From NCBI RefSeq assembly GCF_000170755.1, contig NZ_ABCK01000031.1, positions 1 through 58,943 on the forward strand: a DNA stretch of 58,943 bases, read 5' to 3'. The first letter of the stretch is position 1; each line of letters starts with the position of its first letter. Shown here piece by piece: positions 46,039-58,943 of the stretch. The position numbers and the translations under genes were made by a program. The DNA is from Lentisphaera araneosa HTCC2155. GTDB lineage: Bacteria; Verrucomicrobiota; Lentisphaeria; Lentisphaerales; Lentisphaeraceae. The notes under the pieces were generated by a model, which had not been told where the DNA came from, searched no databases, and worked only from the letters and a program-made list of their open reading frames with translations.

Positions 46039-47358
46039 ATGAATAAAGCATTCAAACTCGACACAGGCAATGATTCTCTTCACAGTATTGGCGGAATATT
46101 TTTAGGAGGTCAAGTTCTTCAACAAAGTGAAATTGACGATGAGTTCAGAACAGATCACAAAGCTAATCATATCTTTCAAGATGTAGATATCTTCAAGTCT
46201 CAGGTTGGGTTGCTGATTCAGGGGCGTGAACGCTTCACAGATATTAGTCAGTTTCGAGAAAACGAAGTTTTTACGAAATCACTTGGATTAAATAAAGTTC
46301 CATCAGAGGAACGTTTGCGTCAACGATTAGAAATCATGTCCTCTGAGCATGAAGTGCGTTTAAAGTCAGCTAATACGAAGCTTATTAAAAAGCAATCGAT
46401 AGGTAGCTTATCAAGAGGCGGAATGGATTTTATTCCACTCGATATGGACGTATCACCCATGGATAACTCCGGAAGTCACAAAGAAAATGTGAGTTGGACG
46501 TATAAAAATCATGATGGTTTTTCTCCTATGTTTGCCTACCTCGGAATTGAGGGTTTTATGCTGAACAATGAACTACGTCCAGGTTCACAACATGCACAAA
46601 AAGGAATGCCTGAGTTCTTAGACGAAAGCTTTACTATGATCAAAAAATTAAAGCTTAAACACCCCGTTCTACTTCGTTTAGACTCCGCTCACGATGCTGA
46701 AGTTAATTTCGATCACCTCCCTGATGACCAATACTTTCTGATTAAACGGAACCTGAGAAAGGAATCCAAAGAACAGTGGTTATCCAACGCACGGCGTTTA
46801 GGGCGACAGCTTAAATCTCGAGATGGTAAGAATGTATTTGTCGGTGAGCTCCATCACAGACAACCTGGAAACAATGAAGAGCGTAAAGTGGTTCCTTTTA
46901 TTTTTAAAGTTACGGAGCAACTCGAGGATCAAGACGGCAATCGACTTTTGATGCCAGAGATCGAAGTGGAAACCTATTGGACCAATTTACCTCTGGAAGC
47001 CGAGGATGTGATCGAACTTTATCACGATCATGGAACCAGTGAACAGTTCCATAGCGAATTAAAGAGCGATATGAATGTAGAGCGTTTGCCATCCGGAAAA
47101 TTCAAAGCGAATCAATTCTTTTTACACTGCGCCATGCTGGCCTTTAATGTTCTCAGAGTCATTGGCAATCACCTTATCCATAATAAATCTTTGGCTCCAA
47201 TAAAAATCAAAGTTCAACGGCGACGCTTACGTTGTGTAATACGTGACTTAATTTTTATCGCTTGTAAACACGTAAAACACGCAGGAGATGAATTCCTTAA
47301 ATTTGGACGACATTGCCCTTGGTTTAAGCTGTATCAAAAAATATCTTTTAGTCTTTAA
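46039..47358 (+). CDS. IS1380-family transposase
   Basis: A 439-residue DDE transposase. The first acidic site is in FIPLDMDVSPMDNSGSHKE, the second is LLRLDSAHDAEVNF, and the C-terminal Glu site is DHGTSEQFHSELKSDMNVER. The end carries the conserved ANQFFLHCAMLAFNVLR element. The overall order and spacing match IS1380-type transposases, and no frameshift or stop interrupts it. It would cut and paste the 45935-47589 element. Translation may be held down by the inverted repeat at 45979-46034. Confidence 0.93.
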   Translation: MNKAFKLDTGNDSLHSIGGIFLGGQVLQQSEIDDEFRTDHKANHIFQDVDIFKSQVGLLIQGRERFTDISQFRENEVFTKSLGLNKVPSEERLRQRLEIMSSEHEVRLKSANTKLIKKQSIGSLSRGGMDFIPLDMDVSPMDNSGSHKENVSWTYKNHDGFSPMFAYLGIEGFMLNNELRPGSQHAQKGMPEFLDESFTMIKKLKLKHPVLLRLDSAHDAEVNFDHLPDDQYFLIKRNLRKESKEQWLSNARRLGRQLKSRDGKNVFVGELHHRQPGNNEERKVVPFIFKVTEQLEDQDGNRLLMPEIEVETYWTNLPLEAEDVIELYHDHGTSEQFHSELKSDMNVERLPSGKFKANQFFLHCAMLAFNVLRVIGNHLIHNKSLAPIKIKVQRRRLRCVIRDLIFIACKHVKHAGDEFLKFGRHCPWFKLYQKISFSL

Positions 47359-52340: not shown

Positions 52341-52363
52341 TCTGCGTATCAAAGGAAATGAAT

Positions 52364-53893
52364 ATGTTTGAACAAAATCCCATACGTGAAAATGATCTGA
52401 TGATGACTCGCCGCAACTTATTTGGCCAGGCCAGTCTTGGTCTTGGCACCATGGCCATGGCCATGGCCATGGCAAACCTTTACGGCGCAGATTCAAGCAA
52501 TCCTCAACTCAGACAAAAAGCTGAACTCAATGGGGGAATCCATCACAAAGCCACCGCCAAGCGAGTTATTTACCTCTTTATGAGTGGCGGCCCCAGCCAT
52601 CACGATACCTGGGACTACAAACCCAAAATGACCGACATGTTTGGCAAAGAACTCCCCGATGAAATCCGCGATGGTCAGCGCGTCACGGGCATGACTGCGG
52701 GCCAAAAGAGTTTCCCTGTTTGCCCCAGTAAATACAAGTTCAAAAAATACGACAACAATGAAAATGGCGTCCACGTCAGTTCGCTCTTGCCCCACACCGC
52801 AAAAGCGGTCAAAGAAATGTGCATCGTCAATAGTACTTTTACCGAGGCAATCAATCACGACCCCGCCATCACCTATATCCAAACTGGTAGTCAAATCCCT
52901 GGTCGCCCTAGCCTTGGCGCCTGGCTGAGCTATGGCCTTGGCAGTGACAACAAAGACCTCCCGGGTTACGTAGTCATGCACGCCAGAAGTCAACACGCGG
53001 AGCAAAGCCTCTTTGGTCGCCTCTGGGGAAGTGGCTTCATGCCTTCTGATCATCAGGGCGTTCTGCTTAGGAGTCAAAAAGATGCCGTGCTCTATCTCAA
53101 TAATCCCAAAGGTGTGAGTCGCGCTAATCGTCGTCAACAACTCGATGCCCTCGCAGCACTTAATCAACAACATCACGACTCCTTTGGTGATCCTGAGATT
53201 CTTGCTCGCATTCGTCAACACGAAATGGCCTACCGCATGCAAACCGCCGTTCCTGAACTCATGGATATTTCTCAGGAACCTGAGCATACCTACAAACTCT
53301 ATGGTGAAGACGCTCGCACCCCGGGTACTTTTGCCGCTTCTTGCCTCAATGCTCGACGTCTAGCGGAACGCGGAGTTCGCAATATTCAGATCTTTCACCG
53401 CGGTTGGGATGCCCACCGCAACCTCCCACATGAGCACGAAAATCAGTGCCGTGATATCGATCAAGCCTGCTATGGGCTTATTATGGACCTCAAGCAACGC
53501 GGCATGTTAGAAGATACCCTTGTTGTTTGGGGTGGTGAATTTGGTCGTACAGCTTATTGCCAAGGGCCGCTCACAAGAGAAAACTATGGTCGCGATCATC
53601 ACCCGCGTTGCTTCACAACTTGGATGGCTGGTGGCGGTATTAAACCTGGTATCACTTATGGTCGCACCGATGATTATGGCTACAATATTACGGATAAAGA
53701 TGGCAACATACTCAAACCGCAACCGAGTAAAGATGACAAATGGGTTCCCGGCACCATGCACATCCACGATCGCAACGCCACTATCTTACACCTCATGGGC
53801 ATTGATCATCGCAAACTCACTTATCGCTATCAAGGTCGCGACTTCCGCCTCACCGACGTCCACGGCCACGTCATCCACGATATTATGGCTTAA
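52364..53893 (+). CDS. DUF1501 family protein with Tat signal
   Basis: About 509 residues. I use ATG 52364 because AAAGGA at 52351-52356 is seven bases from it and too close to the ATG at 52358. A twin-arginine signal (TRRNLF) is followed by a hydrophobic core GQASLGLGTMAMAMAMANLYG. The body has VIYLFMSGGPSHHDTWDYKP, DTLVVWGGEFGRT and the C-terminal MGIDHRKLTYRYQGRDFRLT, all typical of DUF1501, an alkaline-phosphatase-superfamily group. It is the partner of the PSCyt1 protein 23 bases upstream. The final codons and 3' flank recur at 55803-55927 and 57969-58032. Confidence 0.93.
   Translation: MFEQNPIRENDLMMTRRNLFGQASLGLGTMAMAMAMANLYGADSSNPQLRQKAELNGGIHHKATAKRVIYLFMSGGPSHHDTWDYKPKMTDMFGKELPDEIRDGQRVTGMTAGQKSFPVCPSKYKFKKYDNNENGVHVSSLLPHTAKAVKEMCIVNSTFTEAINHDPAITYIQTGSQIPGRPSLGAWLSYGLGSDNKDLPGYVVMHARSQHAEQSLFGRLWGSGFMPSDHQGVLLRSQKDAVLYLNNPKGVSRANRRQQLDALAALNQQHHDSFGDPEILARIRQHEMAYRMQTAVPELMDISQEPEHTYKLYGEDARTPGTFAASCLNARRLAERGVRNIQIFHRGWDAHRNLPHEHENQCRDIDQACYGLIMDLKQRGMLEDTLVVWGGEFGRTAYCQGPLTRENYGRDHHPRCFTTWMAGGGIKPGITYGRTDDYGYNITDKDGNILKPQPSKDDKWVPGTMHIHDRNATILHLMGIDHRKLTYRYQGRDFRLTDVHGHVIHDIMA
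52451..52474 (+). repeat. ATGGCC hexanucleotide tract in the Tat signal
   Basis: Three perfect ATGGCC units and a fourth, ATGGCA, encode alternating Met-Ala in the hydrophobic core of the DUF1501 signal peptide. Unit changes keep frame, so only the signal length would vary. Confidence 0.9.
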
Positions 53894-53952
53894 GCCTATT
53901 CAATAAACGGCGCCCTGGGTACACCAAGCACCAGCTTGGCCTTGTCTCAAAA
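53801..53952 (+). repeat. Tail copy A: native 3' end and flank of the DUF1501 gene
   Basis: The original of a sequence repeated downstream. It covers the last codons (IDHRKL through HDIMA), the stop, and 60 bases of flank including stem CCAAGC/GCTTGG (53924-53939). The hexamer run between CGACG and TCAT has two NCCACG units here, three in copy B and one in copy C. Confidence 0.9.
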
Positions 53953-53994: not shown

Positions 53995-54474
53995 TTAGGG
54001 ATTTTCAAAAATCTCTATCAACGCATTGAGTTCACTAAAATTAACTCGCCAGGATTCGAGTTGTTCTTTAGAGATTCGTCTTGCCCATTCATCCTTATCA
54101 ATCTTCTGGGCTTCTCGGCTGAAATAAGTTTCAAAAGTCGATTTAATATTTTGACTTACACTTTGATCGTAAACTATCTTTAACAAAAAAGCCTCTAAAC
54201 AAGGACTTATTCGTAGTGAAGTAATACTCCGTGGAATTGACATAGTTATATCTTTATCATTATCACTTATACAATAAACTTCATCATAGCCTGAACATAT
54301 TTTCTTAGCCCTTCTAATAACTGATTGAGGATCACCACCAGCTTTCTCAACCCTAAATGACCAAGTACTATTCTGATATGTTTGCTTTAAAAAATCCAAA
54401 AAACTCTTATCCGCTTTACCTTCGCAAACAATAAGACATGTAGTTTTCTGCTGACGTCTCCTCCTACCATTCAT
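53995..54474 (-). CDS. RloB-like TOPRIM protein (cassette 1, second gene)
   Basis: A 159-residue protein of the RloB/AbiLii type. The TOPRIM fold is marked by Glu18 in IVCEGKADKSF and Asp71/Asp73 in ISDNDKD. The segment SPCLEAFLLKI (about 90-100) matches the (N/S)PCFExWLL element of RloB. A basic N-terminus (NGRRRRQQK) may bind nucleic acid. It should be a nuclease partner of the ATPase that ends two bases upstream. Such pairs have been linked to phage defence (AbiL) and to restriction loci (RloA/RloB). Activity here is inferred. Confidence 0.82.
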   Translation of the reverse strand: MNGRRRRQQKTTCLIVCEGKADKSFLDFLKQTYQNSTWSFRVEKAGGDPQSVIRRAKKICSGYDEVYCISDNDKDITMSIPRSITSLRISPCLEAFLLKIVYDQSVSQNIKSTFETYFSREAQKIDKDEWARRISKEQLESWRVNFSELNALIEIFENP

Positions 54475-54476
54475 AA

Positions 54477-55664
54477 CTACGCCTCTACAGGTATACCGCC
54501 ATACGCTCCAGCATGATACTTTTCGCGTAAGTTATCGACACGACGCACTCCTTTAATGTCTTTGATAAAGTAAGCATCCGTAACGCAATTCTCGTCTTTT
54601 TCCGTAAGGATAATTTGCTCCTTTTCCAAATAAGACATGATATAATCCGCATGACCCGTAAAAATCAATTGCGCTCCATGAGGGTTACTTTCCTCATCGT
54701 AAAATAACTCTAAGAAATTTTTAAGCATGTGCGAATGGAGATAGGCATCAATTTCATCAATAACTGCAACGCCTCCGTGTTTCAATGTATTGAGTACATC
54801 AAAAATCAATACATAAAGAGACTGAGTGCCATTAGACTCCTGACCAATGAAAAGAGATTGGCGATCTCCGTTGATTTCATGAAAAACGAATGGAATTGTT
54901 TCAACTACAGCTTTGTCACCCTTTATCACTTCTTTGGTTTTAAACTGAATATCTACTAAACCTAGATCGAACGAGGACAGTAATTGCACAGCCTGATCTT
55001 TGATATCTTCATTAAGTTTATATTTTTCGGTAGAACTAAAAATTTTATCTAATAAAGGCGAGGTCAAATTATCGCGCCCCATGCTCGTGACATTACTTAC
55101 TGAATTTAAGAAAGCATTAATAGGAGAATTAAGAGCTGCAATCTCAATATCATTGTGATAGCAAAATGATAATAAAGACACCTTTACTGAAAAAATATCC
55201 GATAATTTAGCAATCTCTTTAATAGGAGATTTAATGGTTTTACCAATTCGGGTAAAGATGGTCGCCTTTTTAAGTCGCGTTTTAAGCGACTCTCTTACAA
55301 TCCCTTCCGACTTTACTTCTAAAGTGTATAAATAGATTTCTCCATAAGCATCAAACTCCAGTTCAAACTTAGACGTCGCATCTTTAGTTTCTTCACAAAA
55401 CTTAAAACCTAACACTGGTATATCCTGATCTTTGTCTAGTAGATAAGAGTCCGTTGTAAAGTACTTCAAAAATGCTAAAGCTTTAACTAAATTTGTTTTC
55501 CCTGATGCATTATGACCAAAAACCGCGACAACCTTTGGGTAACGACCACCGTCACAATTTTCATAAAAGGCCTCCAAGGGGGGTGCATTTTTTGGAATAG
55601 AGAAATTAAGTGCCACCTTGTCGCGAATGCTGTAAAAGTTTTCAACAGTAAATTTTCGTATCAT
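54477..55664 (-). CDS. AAA_15/RloA-like ATPase (cassette 1, first gene)
   Basis: A 395-residue SMC-like ATPase. N-terminus IRKFTVENFYSIRDKVALNF, Walker A GHNASGKT (50-57), a long middle region without coiled-coil, and a Walker B/signature region late in the protein: GQESNGTQSLYVLIFD, then GGVAVIDEIDAYLHSHM near 300 and TGHADYIMSY. This is the RloA/AbiLi-type sensor of defence pairs. It stops two bases before the RloB-like gene. A perfect 11-bp dyad lies 62 bases upstream. Cassette 1 is on the minus strand, opposite to the DUF1501 gene. Confidence 0.85.
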   Translation of the reverse strand: MIRKFTVENFYSIRDKVALNFSIPKNAPPLEAFYENCDGGRYPKVVAVFGHNASGKTNLVKALAFLKYFTTDSYLLDKDQDIPVLGFKFCEETKDATSKFELEFDAYGEIYLYTLEVKSEGIVRESLKTRLKKATIFTRIGKTIKSPIKEIAKLSDIFSVKVSLLSFCYHNDIEIAALNSPINAFLNSVSNVTSMGRDNLTSPLLDKIFSSTEKYKLNEDIKDQAVQLLSSFDLGLVDIQFKTKEVIKGDKAVVETIPFVFHEINGDRQSLFIGQESNGTQSLYVLIFDVLNTLKHGGVAVIDEIDAYLHSHMLKNFLELFYDEESNPHGAQLIFTGHADYIMSYLEKEQIILTEKDENCVTDAYFIKDIKGVRRVDNLREKYHAGAYGGIPVEA

Positions 55665-55725
55665 CGTTAAACCAAAGAATATTTAATAATACATAATAAA
55701 TGTTCCAAAAATCCCATTAATCAAC

Positions 55726-55753
55726 CAACTTTGACAAAATAATGTCAAAGTTG
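55726..55753. promoter_or_regulatory. 11-bp perfect inverted repeat upstream of cassette 1
   Basis: CAACTTTGACA (55726-55736) and TGTCAAAGTTG (55743-55753) with a 6-base centre, in the gap before the ATPase start at 55664. Both arms contain a TTGACA or TGTCAA core. It could be a regulator's operator for the cassette; no local regulator gene is seen. Confidence 0.55.
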
Positions 55754-55802
55754 TTTATTTATGCCATTCTTTATTCCTTTTAGAACCTGGTTAACTTTAC
55801 CC

Positions 55803-55927
55803 ATCAATCACCGCAAACTCACCGACGTCCACGGCCACGGCCACGTCATCCACGATATTATGGCTTAAGCCTATTCAATAAACGGCGTCCTGGGTACACC
55901 AAGCACCAGCTTGGCCTTGTCTCAAAA
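55803..55927 (+). repeat. Tail copy B: duplicated 3' end of DUF1501 and flank
   Basis: Nearly identical to 53801-53952 from the CGACGTCC stretch through the stop codon and on to CTCAAAA, with one base change in the flank. It lacks 33 in-frame bases present in copy A, lost between two CTCAC repeats, and has one extra NCCACG hexamer. There is no gene body before it. The rest of 55665-56020 holds the cassette 1 upstream dyad and a hairpin TTGCCGTA/TACGGCAA (55933-55955) just before cassette 2. Confidence 0.92.
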
Positions 55928-56020
55928 AACCCTTGCCGTAGTTTTTTTACGGCAAACCTTGATAAGCTCTATTTCACCTCTAAGTTCTTAGCAATTATGT
56001 AATAAGGCTAGGACTATCAA

Positions 56021-57157
56021 ATGCTACGAAAGTTTTCAGTAACTAACTTTAAAGGTTTTAAAGATAAATTTACACTTGACTTTACAGACTCTAAAAGCTT
56101 TGAATTTAATCAAGAATGTATAAAAGATGATACCATTTATAAAGCTCTTATATATGGCGTAAATGGATGCGGAAAATCGAATTTAGGTTGTGCTATCATG
56201 GATATCCAATTCCATTTAACTGATTGGAACCTTCATGAAAAACGAGACCTATATAAAAATTATATTAATGCACTATCTAATGAAAAATACGCTAAATTTT
56301 CATACGAATTTTATTTTGCTGGTGACACTCTCATATACGAATATTGGAAAGAGAATGCGGATGAAGTGATTGCGGAAAAAATCATTATTAATAATAAAGA
56401 GCTTATACACATAGATAAGAGAACTGATCAAAATGGTACAGTTCTACTAAAAGGTGCAGAGAGCCTAAAAACAGATATGGCAGGAAAATCGCTATCATTC
56501 GTGAAATTTATTCACAACAACTCTGTATTAGACGATGAAAATCAAGAAAATAAAACTTTTAATCGTTTCATAAATTTTGTCAACTATATGAGAATGATAA
56601 AAACTGTCGATACGCACAAAACAATGAGCTACAAAACATCTTTAGCTTCAAACTATATTCTCGAAGAAGCAGATGGGCTGCAAAAATTCGAAAGTTTTCT
56701 TAACTCATGTAATATAAAATGTTCATTAACAACCATTGATGTAGGTGAAGAAGATCCACATATAGCTTTTAATTTTGATTCAAAAGCTATTAGTTTTTTT
56801 GATGTCGCTTCTACAGGAACATTATCACTTGGCTATTTATATGTCTCATTGTTAATTCTAAAAAGACATATTAAAGAATATGGCGCTACATTCATTTATA
56901 TTGATGAATTTGATGCTTTCTATCATTACCTCTTAGCTAAAAAACTTATTGATTTATTAAAAAATGAAGATGGTGTTCAAGCTGTATTCACAACTCATAA
57001 TACCGACTTAATGAATAATGATTTAATGCGTCCCGATTGTTTATTTAACATGACTGAGAGTGAAATTAATCCTTTCCATAAATTAACTAAAAAAGATTTA
57101 CGAAAAGCTCATAACAATCAAAAGATGTTTAAAGCTGGCATGTTTAATGAGTTATAA
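56021..57157 (+). CDS. AAA_15-type ATPase (cassette 2, first gene)
   Basis: A 378-residue SMC-like ATPase. N-terminus LRKFSVTNFKGFKDKFTLDF, Walker A GVNGCGKS (46-53), signature area ASTGTLSLGYLYVSLLIL and Walker B IYIDEFDAFYH near 290, then an H-loop VFTTHNTDLM. It has the same domain order as the ATPase of cassette 1, but little similarity outside these motifs, so the two are different lineages. Codon use is markedly AT-rich compared with the degradative genes nearby, a sign of transfer. Its stop overlaps the start of the TOPRIM-like gene by 11 bases. Confidence 0.85.
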   Translation: MLRKFSVTNFKGFKDKFTLDFTDSKSFEFNQECIKDDTIYKALIYGVNGCGKSNLGCAIMDIQFHLTDWNLHEKRDLYKNYINALSNEKYAKFSYEFYFAGDTLIYEYWKENADEVIAEKIIINNKELIHIDKRTDQNGTVLLKGAESLKTDMAGKSLSFVKFIHNNSVLDDENQENKTFNRFINFVNYMRMIKTVDTHKTMSYKTSLASNYILEEADGLQKFESFLNSCNIKCSLTTIDVGEEDPHIAFNFDSKAISFFDVASTGTLSLGYLYVSLLILKRHIKEYGATFIYIDEFDAFYHYLLAKKLIDLLKNEDGVQAVFTTHNTDLMNNDLMRPDCLFNMTESEINPFHKLTKKDLRKAHNNQKMFKAGMFNEL

Positions 57158-57859
57158 AATATTATTTGTTTTTGAAGGTTTAAAACTGAACCAAAGATAA
57201 GTAATTGTTTACAAGAGCATTTCTTCACTGATGATAGCTCCAGTATTATTCACAATGTTTTCGGAAGTAACATCTATTCTCTTTACGATGTGATAAAACG
57301 AGATGAACATGCAGATGTTTTTGAGGTATTAAGAGAGCAAAACATACTAACTGATGACCTGAAAAATTTAGATCGTGATGATGTTGGTGAAATATATTTA
57401 TTTTTTGACCATGATGGCCATGACACACGAGCCGACATTCAAAAAATTTCAGAACTACTATCCACGTTTGATAACGAAACCGAAAATGGTCGTCTTTATT
57501 TAAATTACCCTATGGTAGAAGCCATTAAAGAAACTGATCTATTGAAAAATAAAACTTGGAAAATCACAAAGAATAAACAGTACAAAAGCTATGTGAGTGA
57601 ATTAGATCATTATAATGACTTGATGCGTCTATCGAAAGATGACTGGAACAAAGTGTGTGTAAGGCATCTAAAAAAAGCTAATTGGATCGTCAATAATGAT
57701 TACGCTCTTAGCACTAAAAACTCAATTGAACAAAACACCATATTTGAGGGGCAAGTGGCTAATTTCATTCAACCATCAAATTCTGTCTCAATTCTAAGTG
57801 CATTCCCTTTATTTGTTGATGACTACTTCCAGGAAAATGAATTAGAATATAGACAGTAA
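57147..57859 (+). CDS. TOPRIM-like protein, split by a -1 frameshift (cassette 2, second gene)
   Basis: ATG 57147 overlaps the ATPase stop and opens MSYKILFVFEGLK, the first TOPRIM strand with its Glu. The frame then ends at TAA 57198. A -1 shift at TTTAAAA (57179-57185, read as T TTA AAA) continues with TEPKISNCL and stays open to 57859. The joined protein of about 237 residues has the second TOPRIM acid pair in IYLFFDHDGHD and a Glu in YPMVEAIKE. Without the shift only a GTG at 57290 could start the rest and the catalytic Glu is lost. Choices are programmed frameshifting, a recent one-base deletion (A5 to A4) or a sequencing error. Confidence 0.7.
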
Positions 57860-57968
57860 GCTGCAAGTTCTTTAAGGCCCCCTACATTTAGAAGGATACT
57901 GCACTGGCTTATTCAGGCGATCTCAAAGAATTGCCGATTTCATTGACACACAATGGAACAAGACGATC

Positions 57969-58032
57969 GATCACCGCAAACTCACTTCCAATGCGTTGGA
58001 AGTGAGCTCCCCCCTGCCGACGGCCACGTCAT
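57969..58032 (+). repeat. Tail copy C: fragment of the DUF1501 3' end with palindrome insert
   Basis: GATCACCGCAAACTCACTT (57969-57987) matches copy A, then an 11-bp perfect palindrome CTCACTTCCAA (57981-57991) and TTGGAAGTGAG (57996-58006) plus GCTCCCCCCTG interrupts, and CGACGGCCACGTCAT (58018-58032) resumes the tail. The stop codon and flank of copies A and B are missing. No gene lies in 57860-58043. Confidence 0.75.
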
Positions 58033-58043
58033 AAAAAATATAT

Positions 58044-58943
58044 TTATTTAGTTGACTTCTCAATGGCTTCTTTGCCGTTGATTTGATCCCAGGTAAAGCT
58101 TTGCTTGCGAATCTGCCCATGGCCAGAGCGGTAAACTTCTAAAGTGACTTGGGGGGGATTCTGGGTCGTATCGAGTTCAAAAACACTAAACATTTTACCT
58201 TGAGTCTCTTTGAAAATCATATCCTTGTTAATTCGAGGTCTTGCATTGCCACTTCCTAGAGGGCCACTGGTAACTTCCAGAGTTTCTCCTCGATTATGAT
58301 AAGCTCCCGTAAAATGTCGATCACCAGAAATCAAAATCACCCCTGGAGTTGCCTTGAATAAGTCGAGGACTTTTTTCTGCTCAACCCGGAAGCCACTGAA
58401 ACCATCGGATGATCCGAACATTTGAAATTCACTACCACAAGCCACGACTTTTATTTTGGCTTGTGACTCTTCCAAAGTTCTCTTCAACCAAGCGAGCTGC
58501 TTATCCCCAAGTAATTTCTTCTTCGGATCATCAGCCTTCATGCTGCCATTTGGAGTTCTATGATAACGGCTGTCCAATAGAATGAACTGAACATCACCAT
58601 AGTGAAATGTTGTGTAAATCCCAGGGTTATCGCTCTCACCAAAACTAGGATTCGCCCAATGCTTTTTAAAGATTTCTAGTGATTTCTCTTTGCCGGGAGT
58701 CTGGCCGTCGGAATTGTTGGGGCCAAAATCGTGGTCATCCCAAATACCATAGGTCGATGTTCTCGCTGTGACAGACCTATAACTAGGGAGTGAGCGGTGA
58801 TTGATATAACGCTTTGTAATTACTTTTGGGTCAGTTGTATCGGCATAGTGATTGTCCCCTAACTGAAACAGCAAATCTAAGTCATCCATTTTGGCGATAT
58901 CTAACCAACTCACATCTTCATCAAATCCACTACGTCCAGAACA
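58044..58943 (-). CDS. PhoD-like metallophosphatase (5' end outside window)
   Basis: A second phosphatase of the PhoD/metallophosphatase group; 299 codons are visible. The frame stays open to the right edge (CSGRSGFDED precedes the GTG at 58913), so the true start lies beyond the window. Metal-ligand motifs are LQLGDNHYADT, GIWDDHDFGPN and ILISGDRHFTG. LLDSRYHRTPNGS lies between them. It is shorter and not closely similar to the 649-residue protein at 43489. It follows tail copy C in convergent orientation to cassette 2. Phosphate release from organic esters outside the cytoplasm is the likely role. Confidence 0.88.
   Translation of the reverse strand, partial: CSGRSGFDEDVSWLDIAKMDDLDLLFQLGDNHYADTTDPKVITKRYINHRSLPSYRSVTARTSTYGIWDDHDFGPNNSDGQTPGKEKSLEIFKKHWANPSFGESDNPGIYTTFHYGDVQFILLDSRYHRTPNGSMKADDPKKKLLGDKQLAWLKRTLEESQAKIKVVACGSEFQMFGSSDGFSGFRVEQKKVLDLFKATPGVILISGDRHFTGAYHNRGETLEVTSGPLGSGNARPRINKDMIFKETQGKMFSVFELDTTQNPPQVTLEVYRSGHGQIRKQSFTWDQINGKEAIEKSTK

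Follow-up and report, generated by a model that had tools for sequence, protein, structure and literature searches.

Pairs of an ATPase and a TOPRIM protein are common among candidate defence systems, and it is not understood what keeps most of them silent until infection. The closest described systems are AbiL, made of the ATPase AbiLi and an adjacent TOPRIM protein of the AbiLii/RloB type; PARIS, in which the ABC (ATP-binding cassette) ATPase AriA and the TOPRIM effector AriB are separate proteins; and OLD and the Gabija protein GajA, single polypeptides that combine ATPase and TOPRIM by fusion. That an enzyme of the ATPase-TOPRIM kind can have sequence specificity, in this case for a near-palindromic site, is shown by GajA (PMC8136825). 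A further group, the PDC systems, consists of candidates found by guilt-by-embedding, most of which await validation (PMC12988326). Here we analysed a stretch of Lentisphaera araneosa HTCC2155 (contig NZ_ABCK01000031.1, positions 1-58,943, the right edge being the end of the contig at 58943; the window below), in which two such pairs adjoin behind a DUF1501 gene: cassette 1 (53995-55664, minus strand) and cassette 2 (56021-57859, plus strand), both real two-gene cassettes. Cassette 1 belongs to a known family, AbiL, and cassette 2 to a candidate family already catalogued, PDC-M12; what is new is a palindromic element upstream of the latter, which suggests that PDC-M12 recognises its own DNA.

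An earlier note on this DNA had given the positions and gene order of both cassettes and had described each as an ATPase with a TOPRIM partner; the sequence bears out both statements, with an SMC (structural maintenance of chromosomes)/AAA_21-type ATPase and a small TOPRIM protein in each pair. Its assignment of cassette 1 as RloA/RloB (AbiL)-like also holds, the RloB match lying above the Pfam gathering score, and by its profile matches the cassette is AbiL. The note had been unable to place cassette 2 in a named system, but on profile evidence this cassette is PDC-M12, a candidate family already catalogued in PADLOC. The features concerned are:

55934-55954, no strand: the PDC-M12 element, TGCCGTA-GTTTTTT-TACGGCA, upstream of the cassette 2 ATPase gene, with the core CCGTA-N7-TACGG at 55936-55952
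56021-57157, plus strand: cassette 2 ATPase, PDC-M12A (M12A below; PDLC04426, E = 2e-127; AlphaFold2 model with a predicted local distance difference test score, pLDDT, of 87.9; Rad50/SMC-head fold)
57147-57859, plus strand: cassette 2 TOPRIM protein, PDC-M12B (M12B below), in a broken frame (PDLC04432, E = 7.2e-85 on the read-through; intact homologues at loci L130 and L131)
53995-54474, minus strand: cassette 1 TOPRIM protein, AbiLii/RloB (PF13707, E = 3e-8, 34.5 bits against a cut-off of 31.5; AbiLii, E = 2.5e-8)
54477-55664, minus strand: cassette 1 ATPase, AbiLi/RloA type (AbiLi, E = 9.9e-71; AAA_21, E = 6.6e-27)

Each gene of cassette 2 matches its PDC-M12 profile along its length, and the gene order is that of the system: the M12A match covers the whole protein (residues 1-377 on positions 1-369 of a 369-position profile), and the start of M12B at 57147 lies within the end of M12A at 57157, an order and overlap shared by the intact homologues. 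The catalogue entry is itself a candidate by profile, and our literature searches, made among open-licence papers, returned no paper naming the system and no description of an upstream element for it. Both genes are intact in L130 and L131 but not in the window, where the M12B frame is broken near 57180 and only 57290-57859 appears as an open reading frame. M12A has a dN/dS of 0.07 and the part of M12B that follows the break one of 0.12, so the break is recent or a sequencing error; unless it is the latter, the broken TOPRIM frame means that the window copy may be inactive. The break falls at T-TTA-AAA (57178-57185), which resembles a -1 slippery heptamer. We rejected a programmed frameshift, as the homologues inspected are in frame and a recent mutation or a sequencing error is simpler.

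The earlier note called the two pairs unrelated, which the alignments contradict: the M12A profile aligns with nearly the full cassette 1 ATPase (hhalign probability 98.3%, E = 2e-14), M12A itself matches the AbiLi profile (E = 7.9e-36), and the M12B family profile aligns with the RloB/AbiLii profile (87%, E = 4e-6), with Pfam RloB matches in 18 of 49 M12B members and AbiLii matches in 7. At the level of sequence profiles, then, AbiL and PDC-M12 are relatives, M12B being a divergent TOPRIM protein of the RloB type. The two systems have the ATPase superfamily and the TOPRIM type in common, but the M12 proteins form families of their own, and the AbiL homologues examined have no common palindrome upstream. 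The M12B model (pLDDT 92.5) has an order of strands and helices that suits TOPRIM, and its conserved residues, E10 and D88-x-D90-x-H92, lie where the fold places them in a beta-alpha core, the glutamate following the first strand (residues 4-9) and D88-x-D90 ending the third (80-88). The M12A model is Rad50/SMC-head-like, with the retron protein PtuA among its fold matches. PARIS resembles PDC-M12 in having separate ABC ATPase and TOPRIM proteins, and M12A weakly matches AriA (6.5e-17). Membership of M12B in PARIS is unsupported: the Pfam matches listed for the 49 M12B members include no DUF4435, the domain of the AriB effector, and no AriB chain came up when M12B was matched against PDB sequences. 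OLD and GajA follow the same ATPase and TOPRIM logic, but they are single polypeptides, whereas PDC-M12 is two genes wherever the second gene was found, and a Foldseek search of the M12B model against the PDB gave no significant match, only weak hits to OLD and GajA entries.

The element upstream of M12A is better conserved than its surroundings. The same genome holds a second, intact PDC-M12 (L130, 8413-10243 of contig 12), whose ATPase is 68% identical to that of the window and which has the same upstream element; the two copies are 71% identical overall, yet share 23 identical nucleotides at the element, and the same design recurs at plasmid and inovirus copies. An exact CCGTA-N7-TACGG was found 40-160 bp upstream of M12A at 73 of 97 loci, against one other exact match in the 1.04 Mb of the same loci, and with up to two mismatches the element is present at 88 of the 97. 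Information content reaches 1.7-2.0 bits per column in the arms and no more than 0.8 in the flanks, and the element is exact or has one mismatch in several M12A homologues that are only ~30% identical. Within the genomes that carry it the site is close to unique: the exact TGCCGTA-N7-TACGGCA has four occurrences in a set of 40 related genomes, every one upstream of M12A, and in 20 carrier genomes of other groups CCGTA-W7-TACGG (W being A or T) occurs once in 14 and not at all in six, 13 of the 14 single sites preceding M12A by 30-90 bp and the remaining one, in genome G314, having no M12A beside it. The spacer is T-rich in 41 cases and A-rich in 37, and such an A-tract in both orientations fits a site that is double-stranded.

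The position of the element relative to promoters differs with the host. In Bacteroidota the motif TAnnTTTG stands between the element and the start codon at 30 of 35 loci (1.7 expected from shuffles), and since this host-type -7 motif mostly comes 13-19 nt past the element, the element lies near the -33 region. In Lachnospiraceae, TATAAT or TATACT follows at a constant 29 nt, and the element immediately precedes a -35-like sequence. That a 17-bp site moves between phyla with PDC-M12 while the promoter becomes host-type points to a control step built into the system.

From host to host the arms are preserved and the promoter type varies, and within carrier genomes the site is nearly confined to M12 loci. 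The simplest interpretation is that the element is a putative operator, most likely read by the system's own protein. We consider it somewhat more probable than its negation that the locus consists of two mobile ATPase-TOPRIM cassettes of one superfamily behind a DUF1501 gene, PDC-M12 being provided with an operator that it reads itself. It can be envisioned that AbiL and PDC-M12 came to lie behind the DUF1501 gene by successive insertions; that M12A, as a Rad50/SMC-head-like ATPase, is the probable sensor of infection; that M12A, M12B or their complex, most likely, binds CCGTA-(A/T)7-TACGG and keeps expression low; and that infection would disturb this complex, freeing both the promoter and the nuclease, whereupon M12B, as an RloB-type TOPRIM protein, would probably cut nucleic acid. 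We infer the antiphage role, the self-binding, the repression and the nuclease activity of PDC-M12, and the model of repression with release on infection is drawn by analogy with self-controlled defence operons.

Several points weigh against this reading. In neither M12A nor M12B was a DNA-binding domain recognised, about 9 of the 97 loci have no recognisable element, and the window's own M12B is broken. Enrichment of -10 motifs downstream of the element is weak outside Bacteroidota (50 observed against 43.5 expected), and since the Lachnospiraceae element precedes the -35 rather than covering it, the site could serve activation. The exact 17-mer also lies on ~69 viral contigs without M12A, so that the near-exclusivity holds per cellular genome and not across the large viral collection, and an element exclusive to M12 among viral contigs is unsupported; these copies are probably the background of a very large collection.

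It is tentatively conceivable, and no stronger than that, that the ATPase-TOPRIM complex recognises its palindrome as part of infection sensing or of telling self from other DNA, beyond the control of expression. The element makes the regulation of the PDC-M12 family, and perhaps its sensing, testable by a simple assay.

We regard it as unlikely that the element works through a nucleic-acid hairpin, whether as a terminator, as structured RNA, or as a cruciform or single-stranded hairpin sensed by the ATPase or the TOPRIM protein. In a few loci the perfect arms are indeed long, with 18, 14, 10 and 10 additional pairs, the mean extra pairing is 1.67 against 0.77 with shuffled flanks, and some changes in one arm would preserve G-U pairing. 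At most loci, however, the arms are only 5-8 bp, A-rich and T-rich spacers are about equally common, and the promoter motifs downstream of the element put the site probably outside the operon mRNA. A terminator was rejected, as T-runs follow the element in just 15 of 78 cases, and so was a general hairpin with compensatory arms, the long arms being confined to few loci.

More doubtful is the proposal that a host regulator, LexA or another stress repressor, reads the palindrome and that PDC-M12 is a stress-induced passenger. The Escherichia coli SOS box is CTGT-N8-ACAG, and LexA boxes vary from phylum to phylum. The element has an SOS-box-like layout, one locus (L206) has CTGTA-N7-TACAG, and the site is located at a promoter. 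On the other hand, the CCGT arms and N9 spacing (CCGT-N9-ACGG in most loci) differ from the E. coli box, so that the element, compared with that box only, is not of the E. coli LexA/SOS type; the site is constant across phyla where LexA boxes are not; and about one exact copy per carrier genome is unlike a regulon. Least probable, and to our minds quite improbable, is that the element is no plain operator but a nuclease target, or a site that serves self-immunity or sensing in cis by a logic comparable to that of BstA's aba element. Phage- and plasmid-borne copies also carry the element, and GajA, likewise of the ATPase-TOPRIM kind, has a near-palindromic recognition site of 15 bp (PMC8136825), but the consistent operator-like place of the element, 50-115 bp before the ATPase start and near promoter motifs, argues against it. 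Recognition by PDC-M12's own protein is the reading we keep, as one to which the comparison of sequences points. Whatever reads it, the element also serves as a DNA signature by which PDC-M12 operons can be found and annotated, broken ones such as the window copy included.

PDC-M12 is widely spread and mobile. Our scan of public genomes found at least 80 M12A loci in several phyla, and a viral scan found 27 relatives, part of them weak. The loci compared for the element span Bacteroidota, Bacillota, proteobacteria, relatives of Kiritimatiellota, viral contigs and small plasmids, most of the ATPases being ~40% identical, and the immediate neighbours of the loci sampled are mainly housekeeping genes, with some genes of mobile elements. 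In E. coli, M12 pairs occur on 4-kb plasmids in 9 of 5,426 genomes and on no chromosome, and further pairs lie on Acinetobacter and Pectobacterium plasmids and in a Vibrio inovirus. Closer to the window, the same-genus genome G001 holds an intact copy whose ATPase is 95.5% identical to the window's; the dS of M12A between the two is 0.27, while that of the adjacent DUF1501 orthologue is ~2, and the cassette has therefore moved recently, by horizontal transfer.

Two observations concern the mobile copies. PDC-M12 is the main cargo of the 4-kb mobilizable E. coli plasmids and forms accessory genes in the Vibrio filamentous phage (L141, L142). A 4.5-kb Marinifilum scaffold (L164) and the 4-kb E. 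coli plasmid (L141) have a near-identical variant element, GGTGTAATTTTTTTACGGTGCC, which may reflect either contamination or plasmid transfer.

The surroundings of the cassettes bear on how they came to lie together. The remaining features are:

52358-53893, plus strand: DUF1501 gene (PSD1 partner; PF07394, E = 4.7e-149), with the cassettes placed at its 3' end
53856-53952, plus strand: direct repeat copy 1, the DUF1501 3' end and 59 nt downstream, with a REP-like (repetitive extragenic palindrome) sequence; 97 nt, 98% identical to copy 2
55726-55753, no strand: perfect palindrome CAACTTTGACA-AAATAA-TGTCAAAGTTG, 62-89 nt upstream of the AbiLi start, from an inverted-repeat scan of the sequence
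55831-55927, plus strand: direct repeat copy 2, a DUF1501 3'-end fragment whose full extent begins at ~55803; 97 nt, 98% identical to copy 1
57966-58041, plus strand: degraded third DUF1501 3'-end fragment, after cassette 2, split by a hairpin at 57983-58004
58044-58943, minus strand: PhoD-like phosphatase, truncated by the contig end (PF09423, E = 2.2e-21)

The 97-nt direct repeats flank cassette 1, and the DUF1501 3'-end fragments bracket both cassettes; repeat copy 2 has an internal deletion yet stays in frame. The same-genus DUF1501 orthologues L065 (88%) and L066 (85%) have no cassette alongside, and the PhoD relative in G001 sits elsewhere than the DUF1501 orthologue of that genome. It is likely that the cassettes were inserted serially behind the DUF1501 gene. 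No integrase was seen in the parts of the window scanned, and a DDE transposase lies at 46039-47358. The earlier note took the tandem as a sign of a defence island. Up to the contig end at 58943, scans of other larger proteins in the window (20 with Pfam and 10 with PADLOC, in overlapping sets) yielded no defence gene and one ABC-transporter-like cross-match. A description that suits the tandem better is that of two insertions where a single DUF1501 gene has its 3' end.

Cassette 1 has a palindrome of its own at 55726-55753. Its sequence and place make it possibly a putative operator of AbiL, although no counterpart was found upstream of the AbiL homologues examined, which are distant (at most 45% identical).

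The hairpin within the third DUF1501 fragment, CACTTCCAATGCGTTGGAAGTG (57983-58004), is single-copy in the genome. The REP-like palindrome GGGTACNCCAAGCNCCAGCTTGGC stands at 53917-53940 and 55892-55915 and at some 38 further places in the genome, often in clusters; with up to two mismatches allowed, this makes 40 places in all, against none for the reversed control.

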